Origin: Fimbriimonadales bacterium | Lineage (GTDB): Bacteria > Armatimonadota > Fimbriimonadia > Fimbriimonadales > GBS-DC | Direction of reading: 5' to 3' | Assembly (NCBI GenBank): GCA_025998675.1 | Contig: AP024673.1 | Span: 2,798,562 to 2,862,561 of the forward strand | DNA: 64,000 nucleotides | Made by a program: the position numbers and the translations under genes | Shown here: one piece after another, positions 21,675 to 64,000 of the stretch | Position numbering within the stretch: the stretch's first letter is position 1 | How the letters are laid out: every line of letters starts with the position of its first letter | Notes under the pieces: model-generated | What the model saw: only the letters and a program-made list of their open reading frames with translations | What the model was told of the DNA's origin: nothing | Database searches by the model: none

Positions 21675-22892
21675 TTAGCAACCACTCCCGAAGTTGAACA
21701 GCACCTGCAGCAGGTCGGCGTCGTCGACGGTCTCATCGCAGTTGACATCGACGCGCCCCAGATTCGAGCCGCTACTGCCAAACGCGAACAACACCGCGAG
21801 CAGGTCGGCGTCGTCCACACAGCCGTTCGCATCGACATCGCCGTTGTGCCCTGTGCAGGCGGTGTCCAGCAGGAACGCTTCTGTGCGTCCTGTGGCGCCA
21901 TTGAAGCCCATCCCTGCGATGTAGCGCCCGTCCGCTGAGATGGCGCGCGCCTCAATCAGGACAGAGTTATTCGTCAGTAGGTAGGCATAGGTTGTGTTGA
22001 GGTTCTCCATACCGCCTGAGGTCCATCGGAAGGCGTTCCCAGCATCATTGGTATCGTAGGAAAAACCAACGATTATGCTCCCATCATCAGAAATATCATA
22101 GGCTATCGCTATCGCGCCGCCCAGCGTGCCGATGTCCTGCACACCATCGGTGGTCGTCCAACGAAAGGCAACTCTGCGCCCATCATCTGTCTCCGCGTTG
22201 CCGATGATGACGCCTCCATCAGAAGACGCCCGTACCGCGACACTGGATGCCCAGTTCGAAGGTGTGGCGATGGGTTGAATGCCAGTTCCATTCCAGTAGA
22301 CTGCCGTTGGGTTGTATCCAGAACCCGAAGACTCGCCAACGACAACCGCGCCATCCCCTGAGACGCCATAGGCAGCGCTCGAATCGCGTCCCGACAGTGT
22401 TCCCAGATCGGCGATTCCATCGGCATCCCAGCGAACGGCGCGCACTGCTCCTGTGTCCGTGGTCGCAACGCCAACGATGATTCCGCCATCTGAAGAGATG
22501 TCAAATGCCATGGAATAGTCTCCATCCGCTGGTAAAGTCTGCTCTGAACCGCTACTCCAATACAGTGCGCGCGCAACCGCATCAGGAAACGCCACACCGC
22601 CTACTATCGTATCCACATTTGAGGCGATGCTGTGCGCATAGGTGGGTCCGTCGGAACGCTCGAACGACTGCAATCCATCTGCCTGTGTCCAGCGGAAGGC
22701 TACATAAAGGTTGCTGTCGGGCAAGTAGGACATTCCTGAGACGATGGCGCCGTCGGCTGATACGCCTGTCGCGAAGCTAAAGCTGCCCGAAGGATGCATG
22801 CCCAGCCATGTGAGGCTTTGTGCGTGGGTGCTCGCGACGACAATCAGCGACATACCGAAAATCCAACCAAGCACTCTCCGTTCGTATCGCAT
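21675..22892 (-). CDS. Secreted HAF-repeat protein with C-terminal dockerin-like repeats
   Basis: 405 aa with a Sec signal peptide (about 1-24, SLIVVASTHAQ). Residues about 35-340 hold repeated blocks of the kind AFRWT-x-x-DGVQDIGTLGG and ISDDGSIIVG, the extracellular HAF repeat with a beta-propeller-like period of about 45 residues. The C-terminus carries two dockerin-like calcium-loop repeats (GDVDANGCVDDADLL and VDVNCDETVDDADLLQVLF). The same tail occurs in the 26556 protein. The function of HAF proteins is unknown. GGAGGC precedes ATG 22892. Confidence 0.85.
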   Translation of the reverse strand: MRYERRVLGWIFGMSLIVVASTHAQSLTWLGMHPSGSFSFATGVSADGAIVSGMSYLPDSNLYVAFRWTQADGLQSFERSDGPTYAHSIASNVDTIVGGVAFPDAVARALYWSSGSEQTLPADGDYSMAFDISSDGGIIVGVATTDTGAVRAVRWDADGIADLGTLSGRDSSAAYGVSGDGAVVVGESSGSGYNPTAVYWNGTGIQPIATPSNWASSVAVRASSDGGVIIGNAETDDGRRVAFRWTTTDGVQDIGTLGGAIAIAYDISDDGSIIVGFSYDTNDAGNAFRWTSGGMENLNTTYAYLLTNNSVLIEARAISADGRYIAGMGFNGATGRTEAFLLDTACTGHNGDVDANGCVDDADLLAVLFAFGSSGSNLGRVDVNCDETVDDADLLQVLFNFGSGC

Positions 22893-22982
22893 GGATGTTG
22901 CCTCCGTGCAATTAATACACGTATCTGTGCGAATGTACCTTCCCTCTGCTTGGGCTGAGGCAATATTGCCACCCTGCGCCGC

Positions 22983-23711
22983 TCAAATCCCCACCGCCTC
23001 GTTCGGCAGGAGTATCTGGAGTTGAATATTGTGGCCGCCGAGCAGCTGTTCGTGCTGGCGAGGCTTCTGGCGCACACGCGCAACGACCACCTGCCCGCGG
23101 TGGGCGGTGAGTTTGCCCTTGTGCGCCAGCGCCCAGGCGTCCTCGTCGACGCCAATCCCCACAAGGCTGGGATGCTCCAGCAGGGCGCACAGCAGGCGCG
23201 GCAGACGCTGCCGCTTGAGGAAGTGCTGGTCCACCAGCGCGTTCGGCAGCGCGCCGATTGCGGGCGCGGTGGGGCTTGCGCCAACTTTGAGGGCGCCGTC
23301 AGGCGCGTGGTCGCCTGTGGGCATGCGCGCGCCCATCAGCGACGCGCCCGCGCTGGTTCCCCCTACCACGCCGCCGCGCGCCACGACGCCCCGAATCGCC
23401 TCCAGCAGCGCCGCCGAGCCGCCCAGCCGCTCCATAAAGCGGTTCTGGTCGCCGCCGGGGATCCAGACGCCCCGCGCCGCCTGCACCAGCGCAATAAGCT
23501 CGCCCGCGTCCAGCGTGTCCGGGGCGATCAGGTTCTGTGCGCCGTTCTCGGCGAAAAAGGCGGCGGAGCGCTGCGCCCCGCGCGCGATATCCTGCTGCAC
23601 ATGCGCCAGAATCACCACCCGCGCATTTGCGCCGTCCGCCAGTCGCAGGAGGGTGTGCGGGATTTCGGGCGGGGTCTCGCCGCCGCCTGCAAGGATGACC
23701 GCGCCGTTCAT
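22983..23711 (-). CDS. Peptidase S51/cyanophycinase-like protein
   Basis: 242 aa. AVILAGGGETPPEIPHTLL at the N-terminus, WIPGGDQNRFME (about 86-97) and the nucleophile block VVGGTSAGASLMGARMP (about 117-133), where the Ser in GTSAGA is the expected catalytic residue, identify the S51 family (cyanophycinase and dipeptidase E relatives). ATG 23711 overlaps the HAD gene stop (ATGA). It may cleave an aspartyl-rich peptide or storage polymer; no cyanophycin synthetase is seen here, so the substrate is open. Confidence 0.85.
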   Translation of the reverse strand: MNGAVILAGGGETPPEIPHTLLRLADGANARVVILAHVQQDIARGAQRSAAFFAENGAQNLIAPDTLDAGELIALVQAARGVWIPGGDQNRFMERLGGSAALLEAIRGVVARGGVVGGTSAGASLMGARMPTGDHAPDGALKVGASPTAPAIGALPNALVDQHFLKRQRLPRLLCALLEHPSLVGIGVDEDAWALAHKGKLTAHRGQVVVARVRQKPRQHEQLLGGHNIQLQILLPNEAVGI

Positions 23712-24439
23712 AACCACTCCAGCAGGGGTCTGAGGTCGCGCAGTTCTGGCACGCCGCTCTGGGGGTCGGGATGCGGCTCGCCCTCGCGGTTCACCCACGC
23801 CGCATGCCAGCCTGCGCTGCGCGCGCCCTCGACATCGTGCGCCCACGAGTTGCCCACGAACACAATCTGCTCTGATGGGAGCGCGAGCTGGCGCTGCACC
23901 CACTCGAAAATCGGTTTGTGCGGCTTGCCGACGCCCACCTCGCCCTCAATCGCCACGAGGTCAAATAGCCCCTCCAGCCCCAGTACCTGCAACTCGCGCC
24001 GCTGCTCAAGGGCGGGACCGTTGGTAATCACGAACAACGGGTAGCGTGCGCGCAGGGCGTGCAGCACCTCCAGCGTCTCTTCGTGCAGATGGAGCATCTG
24101 CTCGCGCAGGGCGGCGTACTCCGTGCTGATGCGTTCTGCCAGCCCGTCGGTGTCCATGTTCAGGCTCGCGAGGAAGCGGCGGAAGGTCTCCGTGCGCGTC
24201 GCGTGCCCCGCCTGCAGATAGAGCGGATACCATTGCTCGGAGTGAATCTCGGCGAGCATGCTCTGGAAGGCGCGTCGGTAGTGCTGATCCAGCGTCTCGA
24301 GGGGCAGCCCTGTCTGGGGCACGAGGTAGCGTTTCATTATCTCGCGCCGCGCCTGTACCGCCACAGGCATATAGACGCACAGCGTATCGTCCAGATCGAA
24401 CCCGACCGCCCGCACCTGACCGAAAGGCGTCTCTCTCAT
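23708..24439 (-). CDS. HAD superfamily hydrolase (phosphatase)
   Basis: 243 aa. HAD motif I is GFDLDDTLCVY (about 13-23) with the nucleophile and acid aspartates, motif II is VITNGP (about 114-119), motif III is the lysine in GVGKPHKPIFEW (about 155-166) and motif IV is VFVGNSWAHDVEGARSAG (about 178-195). An alpha-helical cap lies between motifs I and II (subclass C1). ATG 24439 overlaps the Psd stop by ATGA, so psd, this gene and the S51 gene form a coupled operon. It removes phosphate from an unknown small metabolite. Confidence 0.9.
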   Translation of the reverse strand: MRETPFGQVRAVGFDLDDTLCVYMPVAVQARREIMKRYLVPQTGLPLETLDQHYRRAFQSMLAEIHSEQWYPLYLQAGHATRTETFRRFLASLNMDTDGLAERISTEYAALREQMLHLHEETLEVLHALRARYPLFVITNGPALEQRRELQVLGLEGLFDLVAIEGEVGVGKPHKPIFEWVQRQLALPSEQIVFVGNSWAHDVEGARSAGWHAAWVNREGEPHPDPQSGVPELRDLRPLLEWL

Positions 24440-25152
24440 GACGGTAGCACCCGCGCCAGAGGCGTTTGCCCCCCATAAACCTGCGCGCCCGTGTGCGTGA
24501 GTATCTCCACTGCGCGCGAGAAAATCAACAGATCCACCTGACTGCCGCGTTCGATGAACGAGAGCTTCTGCGCAGGCTGGACGCACTGCCCCTCCTGCAC
24601 ATAGGTCGTGATTTTATTGACGAACTTGTCGGCGATTTCGACCAGCGCAACGCGCACGCGCTCGTTCTCAAGGAAGATGGTCTGCCGCTCGTTCTGCAGA
24701 TGGTACTTTTTGCCGAGCAAGTCCACCGCGCGGCGCAGCCACGCCATGCTCACATACTCCCACAGATCCACCATCGGCAGGTTGGCGCGGGCGGGCGTGT
24801 AGACGATTCGGCGCACCGCGCCTGCAATCGGCGCGTAGTTGTAATGCACATCGAGCGGACTCATGTAGACTCCAATCAGCCAGCCTTCGGATGGCGCGCC
24901 CTCCCAGTCGGCGCGGGTAATTTCGCGAATCGGGATGGGGCGTCCCAGCTTCTCGGCGAAGACAGTCCCGTCCGCGCTCACAGGGCGGATATAGACCACT
25001 TTGCCGTCGCACGGCGCGAGAATCAGGTTCGGGTCAGGCGGCGGAATGCGCAACGGGTCGCGATAGAACCACACCTTGCGCAGAAACCAGTTCGCGCCAG
25101 CGACTGCCGCGCCGACGCCCGCTGCGACCTTGAGCCATGCTGGAATACGCAC
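24436..25152 (-). CDS. psd: Phosphatidylserine decarboxylase
   Basis: 238 aa. WFYRDPLRIPPPDPNLILAP near the N-terminus, GVYMSPLDVHYNYAPIAG (about 92-109) and the processing site FIERGSQVDLLIF (about 200-212), where Ser after Gly would become the pyruvoyl cofactor of the alpha chain, match the short PSD-A subgroup. One N-terminal hydrophobic stretch anchors it in the inner membrane. It makes phosphatidylethanolamine from phosphatidylserine. Start GTG 25152 is chosen because TACACT lies 7 nt upstream. No phosphatidylserine synthase gene is next to it. Confidence 0.9.
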   Translation of the reverse strand: MRIPAWLKVAAGVGAAVAGANWFLRKVWFYRDPLRIPPPDPNLILAPCDGKVVYIRPVSADGTVFAEKLGRPIPIREITRADWEGAPSEGWLIGVYMSPLDVHYNYAPIAGAVRRIVYTPARANLPMVDLWEYVSMAWLRRAVDLLGKKYHLQNERQTIFLENERVRVALVEIADKFVNKITTYVQEGQCVQPAQKLSFIERGSQVDLLIFSRAVEILTHTGAQVYGGQTPLARVLPS

Positions 25153-25159
25153 GGCGCAT

Positions 25160-25165
25160 AGTGTA
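25160..25165 (-). promoter_or_regulatory. -10 box TACACT, 7 nt before GTG 25152
   Basis: GG-TACACT on the minus strand with a 7-nt gap to the psd start; leaderless pattern. Confidence 0.5.
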
Positions 25166-25214
25166 CCCGCTCGGTGAACAGGAACCCCGCCGCGCGCGTC
25201 GAACCCCGTTGGTG

Positions 25215-26486
25215 ATGAGACGAACGCTTGTTATATCCATCGTTGGGCTGTTGACGGCTGCCCTGGCGTGTGCGCAGGAGTCGCTGACGCTGGAGGACGC
25301 GCTGCGGCTCGCGTTGCAGAACAACGGGCTGGCGCGCGCCGCGCTTGCCGACGCCGACGCCGCCGACGCCCGCCTGAACGCCGCCCGCGCGAACCTGTAC
25401 CCCAGCATCGACATCAGCAGCAGCACGACCCGCACGCGCATCGAGGGCGGCGGCGTGAACACCGAGACCACCCAGCGCCAGAACGGCTTCGGGCTGGAAT
25501 GGCTGCTGCTGGATAACGGGCAGCGCGAGCTGCGCATTCGCCAGAGTTCGCGCAGCGCGGAGGCGACCCGCCAGAACACGCGCGAGACGCTCCGCCGCGT
25601 GCTGTTCCAGACCGCGCGCGCCTACTACGAAGCCCTGCGCCGCAAAGAGCTGCTGCAGGTTGCGGACACCGCCGTGCGCCGTGCGGAGACGCTGCTGGAG
25701 GTCGCCCGTGCGCAGGCGGAGGTCGGCGCCGCCCCGCAGAAAGATGTGCTGCAGGCGGAAGCGGACCTCGCCAACGCCCGCGTGCAGCAGATTCAGGCGC
25801 GCAACGCCCTGCGCCTCGCCGAGACCGACCTGAAGCGACTCATCGGCTGGGACGCCCTGCAGCCGCTGCCTGCGCTGGATGCGCCCGACGCCGCGCCCGC
25901 GCCCGACCCTTCCATAAGTCTGGAACAGCTCTGGCAACGCGCGCGTCTGCAACGCCCCGATTTGCGCAATGCCGAACTCAGTCTGCAGATTAGCCGACTG
26001 GGGCTGGATTCCGCGCGGCTGAACAGCCTGATACGCCTGCAAATCAGTGCGCGCGGCTTTCGCGAGTACGAGCCGAACAGCCGCACGCAGGGGAGCATCA
26101 GTGTGATTGCCTCTTACCCGCTCTTCGATGGGGGGCTGACCCGTGCGAACTTGCGCGAGGCGCAGGCGAGCCTGCAGAGCGCGCAGTTCCGCCTGCAACA
26201 GGCAGAACGCGACGCCTACGCCGAAGTCGAGAGCGCGTTGCTGAGCGTGCGCGAGTCTGCTGAACGGCTGGAGGCGTCCCGCCTCGCCGTCGCCGCCGCG
26301 CGACGCAACTTCGACGCCGCGCAGGAATCGCTGCGTGAGGGCGTCGGCACGATTGTGGAGGTGCTGACCGCGCAGCTCGCGCTGATTACCGCCGAGACGA
26401 ACCTCGTGCAGGCGACCTACGACGCCGCCGTCGCCGACCTGCAACTGCGCCTCGCCGTCGGCGACAAGCTGCCCGTGGAGCCATAG
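25215..26486 (+). CDS. TolC family outer membrane efflux protein
   Basis: 423 aa from ATG 25215 (an adjacent GTG at 25212 is possible). The signal peptide ISIVGLLTAALACAQ ends near residue 20. It shows the internal duplication of TolC-like proteins: SLTLEDALRLALQNN at the start of repeat one and SLEQLWQRARLQRPDLRNAE in repeat two, with long Ala/Gln/Arg-rich helices and YPSIDISSSTTRT beta segments. It would form a trimeric channel through the outer membrane for type I secretion or RND efflux. No partner pump genes are adjacent. Together with LpxD it supports a diderm envelope. Confidence 0.87.
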   Translation: MRRTLVISIVGLLTAALACAQESLTLEDALRLALQNNGLARAALADADAADARLNAARANLYPSIDISSSTTRTRIEGGGVNTETTQRQNGFGLEWLLLDNGQRELRIRQSSRSAEATRQNTRETLRRVLFQTARAYYEALRRKELLQVADTAVRRAETLLEVARAQAEVGAAPQKDVLQAEADLANARVQQIQARNALRLAETDLKRLIGWDALQPLPALDAPDAAPAPDPSISLEQLWQRARLQRPDLRNAELSLQISRLGLDSARLNSLIRLQISARGFREYEPNSRTQGSISVIASYPLFDGGLTRANLREAQASLQSAQFRLQQAERDAYAEVESALLSVRESAERLEASRLAVAAARRNFDAAQESLREGVGTIVEVLTAQLALITAETNLVQATYDAAVADLQLRLAVGDKLPVEP

Positions 26487-26528
26487 GCAGGAACTTTTGG
26501 CGCGCAACAGGCTGTCCAAAAACTGGTG

Positions 26529-26534
26529 TATAAT
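26529..26534 (+). promoter_or_regulatory. -10 box TATAAT upstream of the 26556 gene
   Basis: Consensus TATAAT 21 nt before ATG 26556, followed by Shine-Dalgarno GAAGGAGG; a conventional short leader. Confidence 0.55.
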
Positions 26535-26555
26535 ACCAGTGAAGGAGGCGCACTC

Positions 26556-27785
26556 ATGGTTCGACACCTACTGATGGCAGGCGCGCTCACCGCGCTCGCA
26601 GGTCAGCTCATCGCGCAAGACAACGCGTGGAAACCGCTCGGCGGCTGGCAGCTGATTGAACGACTGGACGATGTGCAGATTGTGAAGGTGTTGCGTCCGG
26701 GCGACCTTGCGCCCGCAGTATTCCCGCCCAAGCCCAGCTGGCAACCCGACAGCGGCGACTTTTTCCCCGCGGATGTGACGCTCTATAGCCGATTCGCCAC
26801 CTCGGGACAATACTACGCCTACGCCAGCGACTCCATCATTCTGGACGACATCAATATCAACCCACAACGCGACCCTTCAGGCGTGGGCGAGTTCCGGGTG
26901 AGTCGGGTGGAGATTATGGTTTACTTTCCCGCTGTGGGCGTGTACGAGATTCAGGGGCGCTGGGTGGAAGCGGATGGGGATCTGCCTCCCTATCCCACAG
27001 ACGCGCCGCCGTACACCTTCCTGCGCGTCAATCAGGGACCGCACTTTCTCTTTGTGCCGCAGGCGGGCGTCTGGCGGCTGGCGACCGAGCCCGATCCGAA
27101 CAACGAGGTCTTTACAGTTCAGACCAGCGTCACCGATGAGGGGAACACCTGCCCGGGAAGATACAACTTCTATCTGGGACTCTCTCTGAATAATGGGGCG
27201 GCATGGGTGTGCGGCGCGCTGCCCGGCTCCGATTGCAACATGGACTACTTCATCCAGTACGAGCCGGGCAATCCGGAGGGCGACTACGCCGCTTACATCT
27301 TGGGGGGCGCCACGCCCGCCATCTTCGGCGTCCAGGTCATCGGCGCCCCCACGAACCCCGTCACGGTCATCGGCGGCAGAATCACCATCGACGGCTACAC
27401 AGGCAGCTACAGCGGGCGCACCGCGACCATCCGCGTCAAGCGGGGCACTCGAATCGACACCTACACCACGAACCTGTTCCCCAACGGAACCTATGCGGTT
27501 TCTGTTGCGGGTCAGGGACCTGCGGAAGTGCTGGTGGAGTTGCCGCCGGGCTTGCGGAAAAAGCAGAGCGTGACTCTCACGGGCACTTCGCAGACGCTGA
27601 ACTTCACCCTCACCAACGGCGATGTGAACGGCGATAATGTGGTGGACGACGCCGACCTGCTGCAGGTGCTGTTCAACTTCGGCGGCAGCGACTCCGCCAG
27701 CGATGTGACCGGCAACGGCGTGGTGGACGACGCCGACCTGCTTGTCGTGCTGTTCAACTTTGGCGCTGCCGGGGATGGATTCTAA
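26556..27785 (+). CDS. Secreted protein with C-terminal dockerin-like repeats, unknown function
   Basis: 409 aa. ATG 26556 is chosen over an in-frame GTG at 26526 because the TATAAT box (26529-26534) lies between them and GAAGGAGG stands just before the ATG. Signal peptide about 1-20 (GALTALAGQLIAQ). The middle, about 40-330, is beta-rich with no recognised catalytic motif. The C-terminus carries two calcium-loop-like repeats (GDVNGDNVVDDADLLQVLF and GNGVVDDADLLVVLFNFG) like those of the 21675 protein. It overlaps the following alkyltransferase-like gene by 11 nt. Confidence 0.75.
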   Translation: MVRHLLMAGALTALAGQLIAQDNAWKPLGGWQLIERLDDVQIVKVLRPGDLAPAVFPPKPSWQPDSGDFFPADVTLYSRFATSGQYYAYASDSIILDDININPQRDPSGVGEFRVSRVEIMVYFPAVGVYEIQGRWVEADGDLPPYPTDAPPYTFLRVNQGPHFLFVPQAGVWRLATEPDPNNEVFTVQTSVTDEGNTCPGRYNFYLGLSLNNGAAWVCGALPGSDCNMDYFIQYEPGNPEGDYAAYILGGATPAIFGVQVIGAPTNPVTVIGGRITIDGYTGSYSGRTATIRVKRGTRIDTYTTNLFPNGTYAVSVAGQGPAEVLVELPPGLRKKQSVTLTGTSQTLNFTLTNGDVNGDNVVDDADLLQVLFNFGGSDSASDVTGNGVVDDADLLVVLFNFGAAGDGF

Positions 27786-28107
27786 CGCGCGGCGGGTGTA
27801 CGCGCTGGTGCGGCGCATCCCGCGCGGCAAGGTCATCAGCTACGGGCAGGCGGCGCGCGCCTGCCCGCCCCTGACCGCCCGACAGGTCGGACGCCTGATG
27901 GCGCACGCGCTGGACGACGACCTCCCCTGGTGGCGCGTGGTCGGCAGCGACGGCAGCCTGCGCATCCATAAGCGCGACCCGATGCTCGCCCAGCTTCAAA
28001 AGGCGCATCTGCTCGCCGAGGGGGTGCAGTTCACCCCCGACGGGCGCGTGCAGATGACCCCCGAACAGGTCGCCGAGCCTGCAACCTTCGAGGTACAATT
28101 GCAGTAG
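27775..28107 (+). CDS. Alkyltransferase-like protein (ATL, MGMT family without active-site Cys)
   Basis: 110 aa. The start ATG 27775 gives VYALVRRIPRGKVISYGQAA, the standard DNA-binding beginning of the MGMT C-terminal domain. The motif that is PCHRV in true O6-alkylguanine transferases reads LPWWRVVGSDGSL here, so the alkyl-accepting cysteine is Trp, as in ATL proteins. ATLs bind O6-alkylguanine, flip it out and recruit nucleotide-excision repair. It overlaps the preceding secreted-protein gene by 11 nt. Family certain; a repair role follows from the family. Confidence 0.88.
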   Translation: MDSNARRVYALVRRIPRGKVISYGQAARACPPLTARQVGRLMAHALDDDLPWWRVVGSDGSLRIHKRDPMLAQLQKAHLLAEGVQFTPDGRVQMTPEQVAEPATFEVQLQ

Positions 28108-28133: not shown

Positions 28134-29816
28134 ATGGCACGGCGTTATGACGACGAGTTTGAATTGCCTGAGACGCAAATCCGCGCGCTGGCAATTCTCG
28201 AAGAGATTATGCGAATCGCGCCCCGCGACGACCTGCGCCTGCGCCAGATGCTCCGCCTGCTCCAGCACCAGTTGGAAGTCGACGAACAGCAAATGCAGGA
28301 GGCGATTCTGGCGATTCAGCAGTACGAGGAGGCGTATCAGAAACTGACCAGCCCTGCGAACCGTATCGGCGTCTTTCTGGGGCAGCCCGACGAGGGCGTC
28401 GCGATGGTCGCGCTGGGCGACAGCGAATATTATGCGAATATCGACCCTAAGTTAGAGAACCCCGACTTCAAAGTGGGCACACGCGTGAAGGTCAACGAAG
28501 CGTTTGCCGTCATCGGCGACCTGGGCTATCACCCTGCAGGACCGATTGTCAAAGTGCAGGAGGTGCTGGAGGGAGATCGCCTGCGCGTCGGGGCAGACCC
28601 GCAAGGAATGACCTCGCGCATCGTGTTCCGCTCGACGGATCTGTCGGAGGCGCTTATTAAGCCCGGCGACGAAGTGCGCCTCGAACCGAACTACAAGGTT
28701 GCCATCGAACACATCCCCCATCAGGAAGTGCGCGACTACTACTTCGAGGAAGTGCCCCCGCTGGAGTGGAGCCAGATTGGCGGGCAGGAGGACGCGATAC
28801 GGCTGATTCGCGAGACCATCGAGCTGCCGTTGCTCCATCCCGAAGTGTTCCAGCGGTTTGAGAAGCAGCCGCTGAAGGGCATCCTGCTCTACGGACCGCC
28901 CGGCTGCGGCAAGACGCTGATTGGCAAGGCGACCGCCTACAACCTCACGCGCCAGTATTCCGAGCGGCTGGGCAAGCCGGTGAAGGAATACTTCATGTAT
29001 ATCAGCGGTCCCAAGATTCTGAACATGTGGCTGGGCGAGACGGAGCGGATGGTGCGCGAAATCTTCTCCATCGCCCGCGAGAAGGCGCGCGAGGGCTATC
29101 TGGTGTTCATTTTCATCGACGAGGCGGAGTCGATCCTGCGCACGCGCAGTTCGGGCAGGTGGCTCAACATCTCCAACACGGTCGTGCCGCAGTTCTGCGC
29201 CGAGATGGACGGACTGGTGAGCCTCGAGAATGTGGTGGTGATGCTGACCTCCAACCGCCCGGACTACATCGACCCCGCAATCCTGCGTCCGGGGCGCATC
29301 GACCGCAAGGTGAAGGTGCGCCGCCCCGATCGGGACGCCACGCGCGAGATTTTCGGGATTTACCTCACGCCGACGCTGCCGCTGGATCCCGATTTCGTGC
29401 GCGAGTACGACACGCCCGCCGAAGCGCGCGAGTGCCTGATTGAGCAGGCGGTACAGTACCTCTGGCGCAAGGCGCCTGACACCGAGTTCCTGCAGGTGTA
29501 CCTGCGCAACGGCGGCGTCGAGACGCTGCACTGGCGCGATATGGTCAGCGGCGCGCTCATCAAATCGGTCGTCGACCGCGCGAAGGAGCTTGCCATCCGC
29601 CGCGCCCTTGAGGAGCCGAGCGTCGAACACGGCGTCCGCCCCGACGACCTCAAACGCGCCATCGAGATGGAGTACCGCGAGAACGAAATCTTCCCCAAGT
29701 CGGATGTGATGGAAGACTGGCTCAAGCTCATCGACTACGAACCAGAGTATGTCGCGAGCGTGAAGCCCATCCGTCCGGGCGCGACGGGCGAAGATTTGCG
29801 GCGCACCGTTATCTGA
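28134..29816 (+). CDS. Proteasome-associated AAA ATPase (Mpa/ARC-like)
   Basis: 560 aa. A helical N-terminal part (about 10-75), OB-fold repeats (about 80-190), then one AAA module: LLYGPPGCGKTLIGKA (Walker A, about 253-268), FIFIDEAESILRTRSSG (Walker B, about 320-336), sensor TSNRPDYIDPAILRPGRIDRK. The order and the C-terminal YRENEIFP block match Mpa/ARC ring ATPases that unfold pupylated proteins for the 20S proteasome. The C-terminus ends RRTVI and lacks the penultimate Tyr used for docking to the core. No prcA, prcB, pup or pafA lies in the window. GAGGAGG precedes ATG 28134. Confidence 0.87.
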   Translation: MARRYDDEFELPETQIRALAILEEIMRIAPRDDLRLRQMLRLLQHQLEVDEQQMQEAILAIQQYEEAYQKLTSPANRIGVFLGQPDEGVAMVALGDSEYYANIDPKLENPDFKVGTRVKVNEAFAVIGDLGYHPAGPIVKVQEVLEGDRLRVGADPQGMTSRIVFRSTDLSEALIKPGDEVRLEPNYKVAIEHIPHQEVRDYYFEEVPPLEWSQIGGQEDAIRLIRETIELPLLHPEVFQRFEKQPLKGILLYGPPGCGKTLIGKATAYNLTRQYSERLGKPVKEYFMYISGPKILNMWLGETERMVREIFSIAREKAREGYLVFIFIDEAESILRTRSSGRWLNISNTVVPQFCAEMDGLVSLENVVVMLTSNRPDYIDPAILRPGRIDRKVKVRRPDRDATREIFGIYLTPTLPLDPDFVREYDTPAEARECLIEQAVQYLWRKAPDTEFLQVYLRNGGVETLHWRDMVSGALIKSVVDRAKELAIRRALEEPSVEHGVRPDDLKRAIEMEYRENEIFPKSDVMEDWLKLIDYEPEYVASVKPIRPGATGEDLRRTVI

Positions 29817-61059: not shown

Positions 61060-64000
61060 ATGCGAACGCAAGGGAGTTATCGGCGGTTAGGGATGCGCGC
61101 AGTACGCGCACTGTTGGGTTCCCGTGTAGGACGCTGCTTGGCGGTGAGCATGACGCTGTTGCTGTTGCACTTGGACATCGCGCCTGCGGTCGCCAGCGCG
61201 GAAGCGGCGCGCACGCGCGGCGTTGGGATGCCTGCGGTATCGGTAGCGGAGCGTCTTTCGGGGATGTTGTTGACGCTCACTTCGGCAGTTGCCCAGTTCC
61301 AGCATATTGATACGCCGCCCCTTGCGCCTGCGCCTGGGTTGCCGCCTGCGTGGGGCGCAAGTGCAGGCGTTTATGGCGGTGTGGTGAACCTTGGCAACGG
61401 GAACCTCTGTTTACAGGTTCCGCTGGTAGGCTGGGCGAACGGGGTGAGCTTTGTTTTGGTGTTCAACTCGCAAGCCAATCCGAGCCAGTCGTCGCCGATA
61501 GCCCCCAAGTGGACACATAACTGGCATGTGTTTTTGCAGGTGAGCAGCGACGGCAGACAGGCTACGCTGCAGGAAGGGGACGGCTCGCGCTGGGTCTATC
61601 GCGACAACGATTTGGACGGCGTGTTTACAGCGCCGACGGGCGTGTTTGACCGTCTGTTGCGTCAGGCGGATGGGCGGTATGTGCTGGAGCGCAAGGGCAG
61701 TGAGGAGCGTTGGGAGTTTGCCGCAAGCGGTTCGGTGCGTGTGTTGGAGCGTGTGGCGGATCGGTACGGGCGCGCGATTGTGTTGGGCTATGCGAACGGG
61801 CGACTGCAGACGGTGACCGACCGCTACAATCGCGCGTTGACGCTGGTGTATCAGGACTCGCGGCTGTGGAAAGTGGTGGATTTCATGGGGCGCGCGTGGG
61901 AGTTGCAGTACGATGGCAACGGTCGGTTGTGGAAGGTAGTCTTTCCAGTCGTGGACGATGAGAACGGGCAAGCGCGTACTTATCAGCTTGTGTTGGGCTA
62001 CAACGCGCGGGGGAATGTGATTAGTTGGACGGATCGGTTGGGAAATACCTGGCAGTACGGCTATGTGTCGTCCACGAGCGACGCGCTGAAGTGGTTCCAG
62101 GACCCGATGGGGCATCGGTGGACGGTACTGTATTCGCGCGCGGTGGCGGCGATTGGGATTGGCTCAGGCAGCGTGTCCGAGACGGGCAGTGCGCGTTGGG
62201 TGGATCCGACGCAAGTGTGGGTAGAGTACGGTTTTGCAGAGGCTTTGGCGGTGCGTATCGCGCAGGGCGGCAACGCGACTTCGGAGCGGCTGACGACGCG
62301 GCTGTGGTACAACGGGCAGTATCAGGTGGTCAAGCGTCAGGATACGGCGGGTCTGGTGTGGGAATGGAGTTATGACCCTCAGGGCAACCTGCTCTGGAGC
62401 AAGGAGCCGAACGGGGCGATGACGACTTACATTTACTATCAGGGGACAGACCGTGTATGGAAGGTGACGGACGCGCTGGGGCATGTGTGGGAGTATACCT
62501 ACACCAGCGGGTATGGGGATGTGAAGAGTGTGAAAGACCCTGAAGGGGGTGTGGTGCAGTATGTGTATGATTACGAGTTGAATGAGCCTGTGTACGGCTT
62601 GGTGCGCCAGGTGATAGATGCGATGGGGCGTGCGACGGAGTATCAGTATTACGCAGCGGATGAGGCGAATCTGGCGCGCCGGGGTCAGGTGCGGCGGGTG
62701 ATAGTACCTGGCGGATTCTGGCGGGAAATGGATTACAGTGGTCTGGGTTGGCTGGTGTCGCGCACGGTGCAGACAGCCAACGGGAGTGAGACGACGACCT
62801 ATACTCATGATGCGTGGGGTCGGTTGCGGGAGATAGACTACCCGCGCAGTGCCGATGTGCGCATGGGCTGGGACGGTGAGAACCGTCGGGTGTGGGTGCA
62901 GGACGGTGCAGGTCGGCGCGACTACACCTACGATGCGTGGGGGCGTGTTGTTTTGCAGGAGGGCTGTTGTGGCAGCAGTGAAGGAATAGAGGTTGTGGCG
63001 GTTTCGGCGGAGTACGACACGGCGGGCAGGAAGCGGTTTGAGCGGGAGCGTCGGTCGGATGGGAGTGTCGTGCGCACGGTTGAGTACACCTATGATGCGC
63101 TGGGACGGTTGCAAAGTGTGGGCGATGATCGGGGCGCTGTGGGGTACAGTTATGAGCTGGGCACGGGGCGGCTGCAGCGAGAGGATTACCCGAACGGGAG
63201 TTTTGTGGCGTACACCTACTATGGGACAAGCCATCCGTTGCAGGTTGGTCAAGTATGGAAGGTGGAGCACAAGCGCGCCAATAGTGACAGCTTGTTGATC
63301 GGGTATGAGTACACCTACGACCTGCTGGGTCGGGTGGTGCAAAGCGTGGAGCGTCCGAGTGGGGACACAACGGTTTACACCTACACGCCTGCGGGTCGGT
63401 TGGCAAGCGAAGTGCGCACGGGTCAGGTGGCGTATCGTCGGGAGTACGAGTACAATTCCGACGGTAGTCGGCGTTATGTGGAGCGGGCGGACGCGGTGAA
63501 CGGGTTTCATCAAGACGAGTATGTGTATGATGCGGTGTCGGGTCGTTTGGTGAGCGTGATTGATCGGGCGCCTGAGCCTGATGTGGTGTATAGCTTTAGT
63601 TGGAACCCCGAAGGCACGCTGGCGCGGTGGAGCAATAATCAGCCGAACAGTTATGCGCGTGTGTTTGGGTATGACGAGGAGGGTCGTCTGACGCGGATAG
63701 AGCGGGATTACGGTGACAGAGTGGAGGCAGTGTATGAGTATGGGTACAATAGTGATGGTGTGCAGGTATGGAAGCGGGATGGTCTGGCTCAGCAGGAGTA
63801 TCGGTATGTGTGTCGTATTGGCTGTGGGGGTGTGCCGATGCGGGTGTATAGTCGGGCGATAGGGAGCGAGGGCTGGGATACGCTGGAGGAGTATATGGCA
63901 GGGTTGAGCAGTGTGTGGTATGGTACAGGTGCTGAGAGTGCCCAGGACTATGGGTGGTTAGCGGGGCACTGGTTGAGTGGGCTGACACCGCCGCCTGCAG
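61060..64000 (+). CDS. Secreted RHS/YD-repeat protein, 3' partial
   Basis: About 980 residues are visible with no stop before the window end. ATG 61060 gives a long basic N-terminus and hydrophobic stretch (LAVSMTLLLLHLDIAPAVAS), a signal peptide; ATG 61093 is an alternative. GNLCLQVPLVG leads into DUF6531-like and YD-repeat blocks: VLERVADRYGRAIVLGYANG, WEYTYTSGYGDVKSVKDPEG, YTYDAWGR, YTYDALGRL, YEYTYDLLGRVVQS and YDEEGRLTRIE. Repeats build a hollow beta-cocoon. The core motif and toxin tip, if present, lie beyond the window. Possible contact-dependent toxin or cell-surface protein. Confidence 0.88.
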   Translation, partial: MRTQGSYRRLGMRAVRALLGSRVGRCLAVSMTLLLLHLDIAPAVASAEAARTRGVGMPAVSVAERLSGMLLTLTSAVAQFQHIDTPPLAPAPGLPPAWGASAGVYGGVVNLGNGNLCLQVPLVGWANGVSFVLVFNSQANPSQSSPIAPKWTHNWHVFLQVSSDGRQATLQEGDGSRWVYRDNDLDGVFTAPTGVFDRLLRQADGRYVLERKGSEERWEFAASGSVRVLERVADRYGRAIVLGYANGRLQTVTDRYNRALTLVYQDSRLWKVVDFMGRAWELQYDGNGRLWKVVFPVVDDENGQARTYQLVLGYNARGNVISWTDRLGNTWQYGYVSSTSDALKWFQDPMGHRWTVLYSRAVAAIGIGSGSVSETGSARWVDPTQVWVEYGFAEALAVRIAQGGNATSERLTTRLWYNGQYQVVKRQDTAGLVWEWSYDPQGNLLWSKEPNGAMTTYIYYQGTDRVWKVTDALGHVWEYTYTSGYGDVKSVKDPEGGVVQYVYDYELNEPVYGLVRQVIDAMGRATEYQYYAADEANLARRGQVRRVIVPGGFWREMDYSGLGWLVSRTVQTANGSETTTYTHDAWGRLREIDYPRSADVRMGWDGENRRVWVQDGAGRRDYTYDAWGRVVLQEGCCGSSEGIEVVAVSAEYDTAGRKRFERERRSDGSVVRTVEYTYDALGRLQSVGDDRGAVGYSYELGTGRLQREDYPNGSFVAYTYYGTSHPLQVGQVWKVEHKRANSDSLLIGYEYTYDLLGRVVQSVERPSGDTTVYTYTPAGRLASEVRTGQVAYRREYEYNSDGSRRYVERADAVNGFHQDEYVYDAVSGRLVSVIDRAPEPDVVYSFSWNPEGTLARWSNNQPNSYARVFGYDEEGRLTRIERDYGDRVEAVYEYGYNSDGVQVWKRDGLAQQEYRYVCRIGCGGVPMRVYSRAIGSEGWDTLEEYMAGLSSVWYGTGAESAQDYGWLAGHWLSGLTPPPA

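Follow-up and report, generated by a model that had tools for sequence, protein, structure and literature searches.

What purpose does a tail serve that two unrelated secreted proteins of one genome share at their ends? This question is raised by a stretch of 64,000 nucleotides from a Fimbriimonadales bacterium (contig AP024673.1, positions 2,798,562 to 2,862,561; the whole stretch is called the window), in which a HAF-repeat protein and a second protein, called the 26526 protein after the first position of its open reading frame (ORF), both carry a C-terminal tail of dockerin type. In cellulose-digesting bacteria a dockerin acts as plug and a cohesin as the matching socket; dockerins were originally defined as cohesin partners. 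From the analyses presented here the tail is probably a calcium-binding, type-II-like dockerin that functions as an extracellular docking plug and that likely docks to a predicted receptor. The computed base of this reading comprises two F-hand-type loops with their helices, a dockerin fold, the C-terminal position on carriers that mostly start with a signal peptide, and about 90 uniform paralogues.

Each tail consists of two 12-residue loops with a strongly hydrophobic helix after each, and the repeat unit can be written approximately as D-x-[ND]-x-[DN]-x-x-V-D-D-A-D-L-L-x-V-L-F-x-F-G. A sequence-only reading of the window had proposed such a shared two-loop tail for both proteins. The tail itself is real, but the motif typed there is two residues short and fails a literal match. 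The HAF-repeat protein ends with the letters ...FNFGSGC, and its four Cys residues (346, 358, 385 and 405) all lie within or adjoining the tail. The 26526 protein ends with ...FNFGAAGDGF and has T at position 3 of loop 2.

That the tail has a dockerin fold is nearly certain. An AlphaFold2 model computed from 82 tails reached a predicted local distance difference test score (pLDDT) of 92.1; these 82 also form our profile A2, with one of the 83 two-loop tails counted below left out due to its long C-terminal extension. In a Foldseek search against the PDB the top 34 matches of the model were dockerins or dockerin-bearing chains, headed by the type II dockerin 2y3n_B. The best E value was 2.3e-3, with none below 1e-3 for this small domain. 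VIA-align superimposed the model on 2y3n_B with Z 8.5 and 1.5 Å over 54 residues (next row: Z 6.8), and profile A2 matched the 2y3n chain with E 4.1e-7. Type II dockerins of B. cellulosolvens prefer Phe at position 20 and Asn or Gly at 21, as stated in an excerpt of PMC5590126. In the 83 tails F20 and G21 are each present in 82 first and 83 second loops. The tail is thus nearer to type II than to type I, the class that the sequence-only reading had named. For Dockerin_1 (PF00404, gathering cut-off 22.9) hmmscan gave 17.5 and 13.9 bits for the two window tails, and the genome search placed the HAF tail at 22.9 (over the cut-off) and the 26526 tail at 15.3 (under it). NCBIfam NF041540 matched 62 places of the genome at E ≤ 0.1, six of which reach its cut-off of 29, two of these with neighbours. 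The 26526 protein scored 14.4 or 19.0 bits under this model, and the HAF-repeat protein was not among the matches listed. An exact Gly-Cys (GC) end closes 53 of the 83 tails; the other 30 end differently.

The number and placement of the copies were determined in the entire 2.99 Mb genome. With the tail profile A1, built from 26 tails that are among its own matches, 91 copies were found at E ≤ 0.01 and 88 at E ≤ 1e-11; the Pfam model PF00404 yielded 95 at E ≤ 1. The tail is C-terminal (at most 26 residues from the stop) in 86 of the 91 copies, 85 of them ending at most 8 residues from it. According to our own loop pattern, 83 copies are both two-looped and C-terminal. Eight were set aside from the two-loop counts: three have two loops but lie away from the C-terminus, three are C-terminal with a single loop, and two are internal with one loop. 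The loops are spaced by 27–30, in one case by 33. A signal-peptide-like start was recognized by a crude rule in 78 of the 91 carriers, compared to 105 of 341 other nearby ORFs. Among the 13 carriers failing this rule, six look secreted by eye, and for seven neither call was made. An invariably C-terminal tail on secreted proteins, as considered in the sequence-only reading, therefore describes most copies with five exceptions in position. Of the two findings named there as refuting a general tag, genuine cohesins were not found, but cytoplasmic carriers are possible among those seven. Within the window 20 of 54 ORFs pass the signal-peptide rule, and since only two of these 20 carry the tail, it marks a subset of the secreted proteins.

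The bodies in front of the tails are diverse. After exclusion of three bodies shorter than 40 amino acids, the remaining 88 fell into 47 BLAST clusters at E 1e-5, and the 83 two-loop tails are distributed over 43 clusters, which bears out the uniformity on unrelated proteins that had been suggested from the sequence alone. A Pfam scan of 86 bodies, with two further ones (L044, L098) left out, yielded beta-propellers and PPC as the commonest families among the 25 of 121 displayed. Recent duplication as the source of the uniformity was rejected for most pairs, because the codons at identical tail residues are near random: their mean difference is 0.333, compared to 0.372 for random draws from the tail codon usage, and a difference below 0.15 occurred in 52 of 3403 pairs.

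Several carriers show unusual arrangements. The non-C-terminal copy 508025 is located directly behind a signal-peptide-like start, and three large proteins (L044:1117-5229, L093:6914-8665 and one in L098) have the dockerin close to the N-terminus. Those of L044 and L093 have signal-peptide-like starts, and the former is RHS-like by eye. Four alike cassettes (L040, L041, L048, L054) combine a small tail protein (GGGYDLSWWTIDGGG) with a larger secreted protein that has FTYQG close to its start (FTY visible in one); three of the four contain another protein with an IGAP end.

How the small fold is stabilized appears to differ between carriers. An X-module steadies the type II dockerin by touching one calcium loop or both, and is similar to the immunoglobulin (Ig)-like domain of carboxypeptidase D, according to excerpts of PMC5141474. 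A model of the C-terminal 150 residues of the 26526 protein reached pLDDT 85.4 and has the X-module strands at positions 10–94. The top ten Foldseek matches of this C-terminus are type II X-module-dockerin (XDoc) chains (E 1.5e-7 to 2.0e-6). In VIA eight XDoc entries lead with Z 10.5–11.3 over 132–145 residues at a root-mean-square deviation of 3.9–5.4 Å, followed by 2y3n (9.9) and by unrelated rows from 9.1 down. A sub-threshold CarboxypepD_reg match (Pfam) was obtained in three of four dyads scanned. According to these models the 26526 protein ends in a full X-module-dockerin dyad of the kind seen in cellulosomal scaffoldins. A hidden Markov model (HMM) of the X-module, seeded with 11 stretches upstream of tails, matched 11 of the 91 carriers at E ≤ 10, namely the seed proteins (the 26526 protein and ten others), and gave no match at this threshold in the HAF-repeat protein or the remaining carriers.

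In the other tails a Cys pair is common. A loop-1 Cys is present in 65 of the 83 tails, in 60 of them at loop position 7, and is mostly paired with a C-terminal Cys: 62 tails have both, 14 neither, and seven are mixed (p 7e-10). The association persists when each body cluster contributes a single tail (worst p 3e-4 in 500 draws). The loop-1 Cys is absent from all 11 X-module tails and present in 65 of the 72 others. This distribution in the sequences suggests that a disulfide clasp between loop 1 and the C-terminus would stand in for the X-module.

The helix positions point towards the partner. In 2y3n, positions 10 and 20 matter most for cohesin binding, and position 14 touches the cohesin with its loss tolerated; positions 10 and 11 are termed specificity positions (both from the part of PMC8063739 consulted). 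For loops 1 and 2, D10 is found in 83 and 83, L14 in 82 and 81, and F20 in 82 and 83 of the 83 tails. Position 11 is Ala in 75 tails, and positions 15, 19 and 22 are variable (entropy 1.4–2.9 bits). Tails were also sampled, as the best-scoring loci, from two other genomes. TGS_ARM5 (G161) gave 27 tails from 30 loci, with D10 in 27/27 and nearly the same helix, and G105 gave 14 tails from 22 loci (20 places), with I, V or L at position 10 and R at 17 in 14/14 and no Cys. Near-invariant contact positions beside variable neighbours, together with a differing signature in another tail-rich genome, suggest one shared, lineage-specific partner. Tails that are uniform within a genome and differ between genomes fit co-evolution with one partner per lineage.

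Taken together, the following mechanism can be proposed. Calcium would fill the two loops. Stability of the fold would come either from an X-module in front of the tail or from a disulfide that links loop 1 (usually position 7) to the C-terminal Cys. After export, one surface receptor common to the carriers would contact the two helices at the invariant Asp10 and the near-invariant Ala11, Leu14, Phe18 and Phe20; this receptor would be a cohesin too diverged for detection by sequence, or a different surface protein. The near-identical repeats would permit binding in either orientation. For such two-way binding the repeats are expected to agree at positions 10, 11, 14, 18 and 20, and this agreement is seen in 70 of the 83 tails.

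Several observations weigh against the docking plug. No receptor was found in the searches described below, and docking as well as calcium binding are inferred. Position 10 holds Asp in both loops of all 83 tails and not the hydrophobic Met of B. cellulosolvens type II dockerins; known type II cohesins may therefore fail to bind. Position 11 is free to vary in TGS_ARM5. Positions 13, 16, 17 and even 20 may be part of the core, and the conservation may be partly structural. With regard to stabilization, both the loop-1 Cys and the X-module are missing from seven of the 83 tails, the terminal Cys persists in two of the 11 X-module tails, and the seeds of the X-module HMM were chosen by eye, nine of 11 from the list of Cys-less tails. 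A second disulfide between an upstream or linker Cys and the loop-2 Cys is not claimed; its p value of 3e-6 over all tails rises to a median of 0.096 with one tail per cluster.

As receptor, a genuine but highly diverged cohesin may be considered. The tails would then belong to an ordinary cohesin-dockerin network without cellulosome, with a socket that the profiles miss; we rate this branch of the docking reading at somewhat less than an even chance. In its favour, partners of cohesins share the fold of the tail and the XDoc dyad, and cohesins do occur elsewhere in the phylum: PF00963 matched in 24 of 151 sampled genomes at E ≤ 0.01, 21 of them over the cut-off. One Armatimonadota ORF of about 2197 amino acids (L215, contig C218 of G055) has eight cohesin matches in a row and is scaffoldin-like. 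Against a diverged cohesin, PF00963 gave no match in the own genome, in 19 other sampled genomes of the same order or in 21 relatives, in agreement with the absence of cohesins noted at first reading. A dedicated profile (A4) from 11 Armatimonadota cohesins, which finds cohesins in three of three non-training genomes (G023, G083 and G101, chosen as already Pfam-positive), was without a match in the own genome; its best E value within the clade was 0.046. Four weak clade matches (E 0.046–0.195) were discarded after inspection by eye as alpha-amylase-like, lipoprotein-like and subtilase-like ORFs and a spurious frame. A cellulosome is disfavoured, since neither PF00963 nor A4 detected a cohesin. 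Inspection by eye of the secreted ORFs of the window and the sampled stretches, a minor part of the genome, revealed no repeat scaffold as receptor candidate.

Tails were counted in the same relatives as well. The 13 closest of the 21 have 14–116 each (801 together), TGS_ARM4 has 37, HR16 one, and six have none. In the phylum sample a tail match at E ≤ 1e-4 occurred in 17 of 151 genomes, mostly as one to five weak matches; the exceptions are the own genome and G105, the latter with 36. More tentatively than a diverged cohesin, we consider a cohesin-free network in one Armatimonadota lineage. A type II dockerin, held by X-module or disulfide, would there serve as the plug in general use, and its socket would be a new surface protein other than a cohesin, co-evolving with dozens of plugs per genome.

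A partnerless role, in which the tail is a calcium- and disulfide-stabilized cap that guards C-termini or associates with itself, is unlikely. The Cys pair and the X-module do resemble stabilizers, the receptor searches were without result, and the names of isolates (HOT.MAX, for example) are the sole hint at a hot habitat. A cap would, however, have no need for near-invariance, across 43 body clusters, of positions 10, 14 and 20, the ones that contact cohesin (exposure as expected from 2y3n), nor for a signature that is again uniform but different in a second genome. Least probable is that the tail acts as a signal for secretion or sorting, recognized by an export machine: the C-terminal position of 86/91 copies, the many differing bodies and the exact GC end of 53/83 tails would suit it, but the tail is a folded dockerin, five of the 91 copies are not C-terminal, and covalent sorting was rejected, since the sortase family PF04203 was found in none of 11 genomes including the own one (control search positive in 3/14) and the type IX secretion system sortase family C25 (PF01364) was not found in the own genome (control search positive in 0/14). 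The one C25 match, a strong one to Peptidase_C25 (E 6.1e-49), lies in L319 of TGS_ARM5, the tail-richest relative. From the general sorting or attachment tag of the sequence-only reading, sorting by sortase or C25 is accordingly disfavoured, whereas attachment via a receptor would be the best reading.

Literature searches for GC-type dockerins returned nothing. Judged by titles and the beginnings of abstracts, publications on dockerins of Armatimonadetes or Armatimonadota do not treat such tails, nor do the matches listed for cohesin-less, disulfide-containing or sorting-related dockerins. Non-cellulosomal dockerins have reportedly been treated by Peer et al.

If the tails are docking plugs, a lineage with 14 to 116 dockerins per genome and no detectable cohesin would possess either a strongly diverged cohesin or another receptor, and the uniform tail could readily be used as bait for it. 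The alternative of X-module and disulfide offers a simple account of dockerin stability and may serve robust protein coupling.

Table 1. Features of the two tail-bearing proteins, given as positions of the window (ORF, open reading frame; AF2, AlphaFold2).
Feature	Position	Strand	Basis
HAF-repeat secreted protein, 405 aa, Cys-type dockerin tail	21675..22892	-	ORF; NCBIfam TIGR02913 HAF repeat E 3.1e-32
HAF-repeat protein, signal-peptide-like start, residues 1-24	22821..22892	-	heuristic; cleavage site guessed
HAF-repeat protein, dockerin tail, residues 351-405, GC end	21678..21842	-	tail profile E 1.7e-27; AF2 pLDDT 92.1
HAF-repeat protein, Ca loop 1 DVDANGCVDDAD, residues 352-363, Cys at loop position 7 (residue 358)	21804..21839	-	
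HAF-repeat protein, Ca loop 2 DVNCDETVDDAD, residues 382-393	21714..21749	-	
26526 protein, secreted, X-module and dockerin without Cys pair	26526..27785	+	ORF; signal-peptide-like start
26526 protein, X-module-like Ig/CarboxypepD-reg beta-sandwich, residues ~279-363	27360..27614	+	own HMM; AF2 strands; type II XDoc matches; sub-threshold Pfam CarboxypepD_reg
26526 protein, dockerin tail, residues 365-419	27618..27782	+	tail profile E 1.2e-23; AF2 model; structure matches
26526 protein, Ca loop 1 DVNGDNVVDDAD, residues 366-377	27621..27656	+	
26526 protein, Ca loop 2 DVTGNGVVDDAD, residues 393-404	27702..27737	+	

The coordinates are collected in Table 1. The likelier start of the 26526 protein is the ATG at 26556, with 26526 being an upstream GTG. 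Downstream, a gene for a proteasomal AAA ATPase of ARC/Mpa type was assigned by Pfam (28134-29816, + strand). An orthologue of the 26526 protein adjoins the ATPase gene in the metagenome-assembled genome HOT.MAX.079 (L105), with a body 57% identical and 47/54 tail residues shared. It is the one locus with a body match among 36 searched, many with short flanks; the HAF-repeat body matched in none of the 36. The whole HAF-repeat protein had no match among PDB sequences at E ≤ 1, and the 26526 protein had none in plasmid records. A small ORF in another frame (27742-28107, + strand) overlaps the end of the tail gene; it is alkyltransferase-like by eye and probably starts at a later codon. A long ORF with a signal-peptide-like start (61060-63999, + strand) reaches the window end.

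Among known systems, the Cel48 type II dockerin of B. cellulosolvens (2y3n) is alike in fold, loop ligands 1/3/5/9/12, Phe 20, Gly 21 and two similar repeats. It differs by Met at the recognition position 10, where the tail has Asp, by the Cys pair of the tail, and by its cohesin partner, for which no counterpart was found here. The type II XDoc dyads of the C. thermocellum and A. cellulolyticus scaffoldins (2b59, 5m0y, 4u3s) share with the 26526 protein the Ig-like module directly upstream of the dockerin, at a sequence identity of about 15–20%; no cohesin was found in the 26526 protein. The GC-type dockerin domain-anchored protein family NF041540 is similar by its C-terminal dockerin and final Gly-Cys, judged by family name and HAF tail, but the window proteins stay under its cut-off of 29 and 30 of the 83 tails lack the GC end. 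The planctosome proposed for freshwater Planctomycetes, as described in an excerpt of PMC6461901, likewise has non-cellulosomal dockerins on secreted proteins; in contrast to the tail genome, in which no cohesin was found, it includes cohesins and peptidases.

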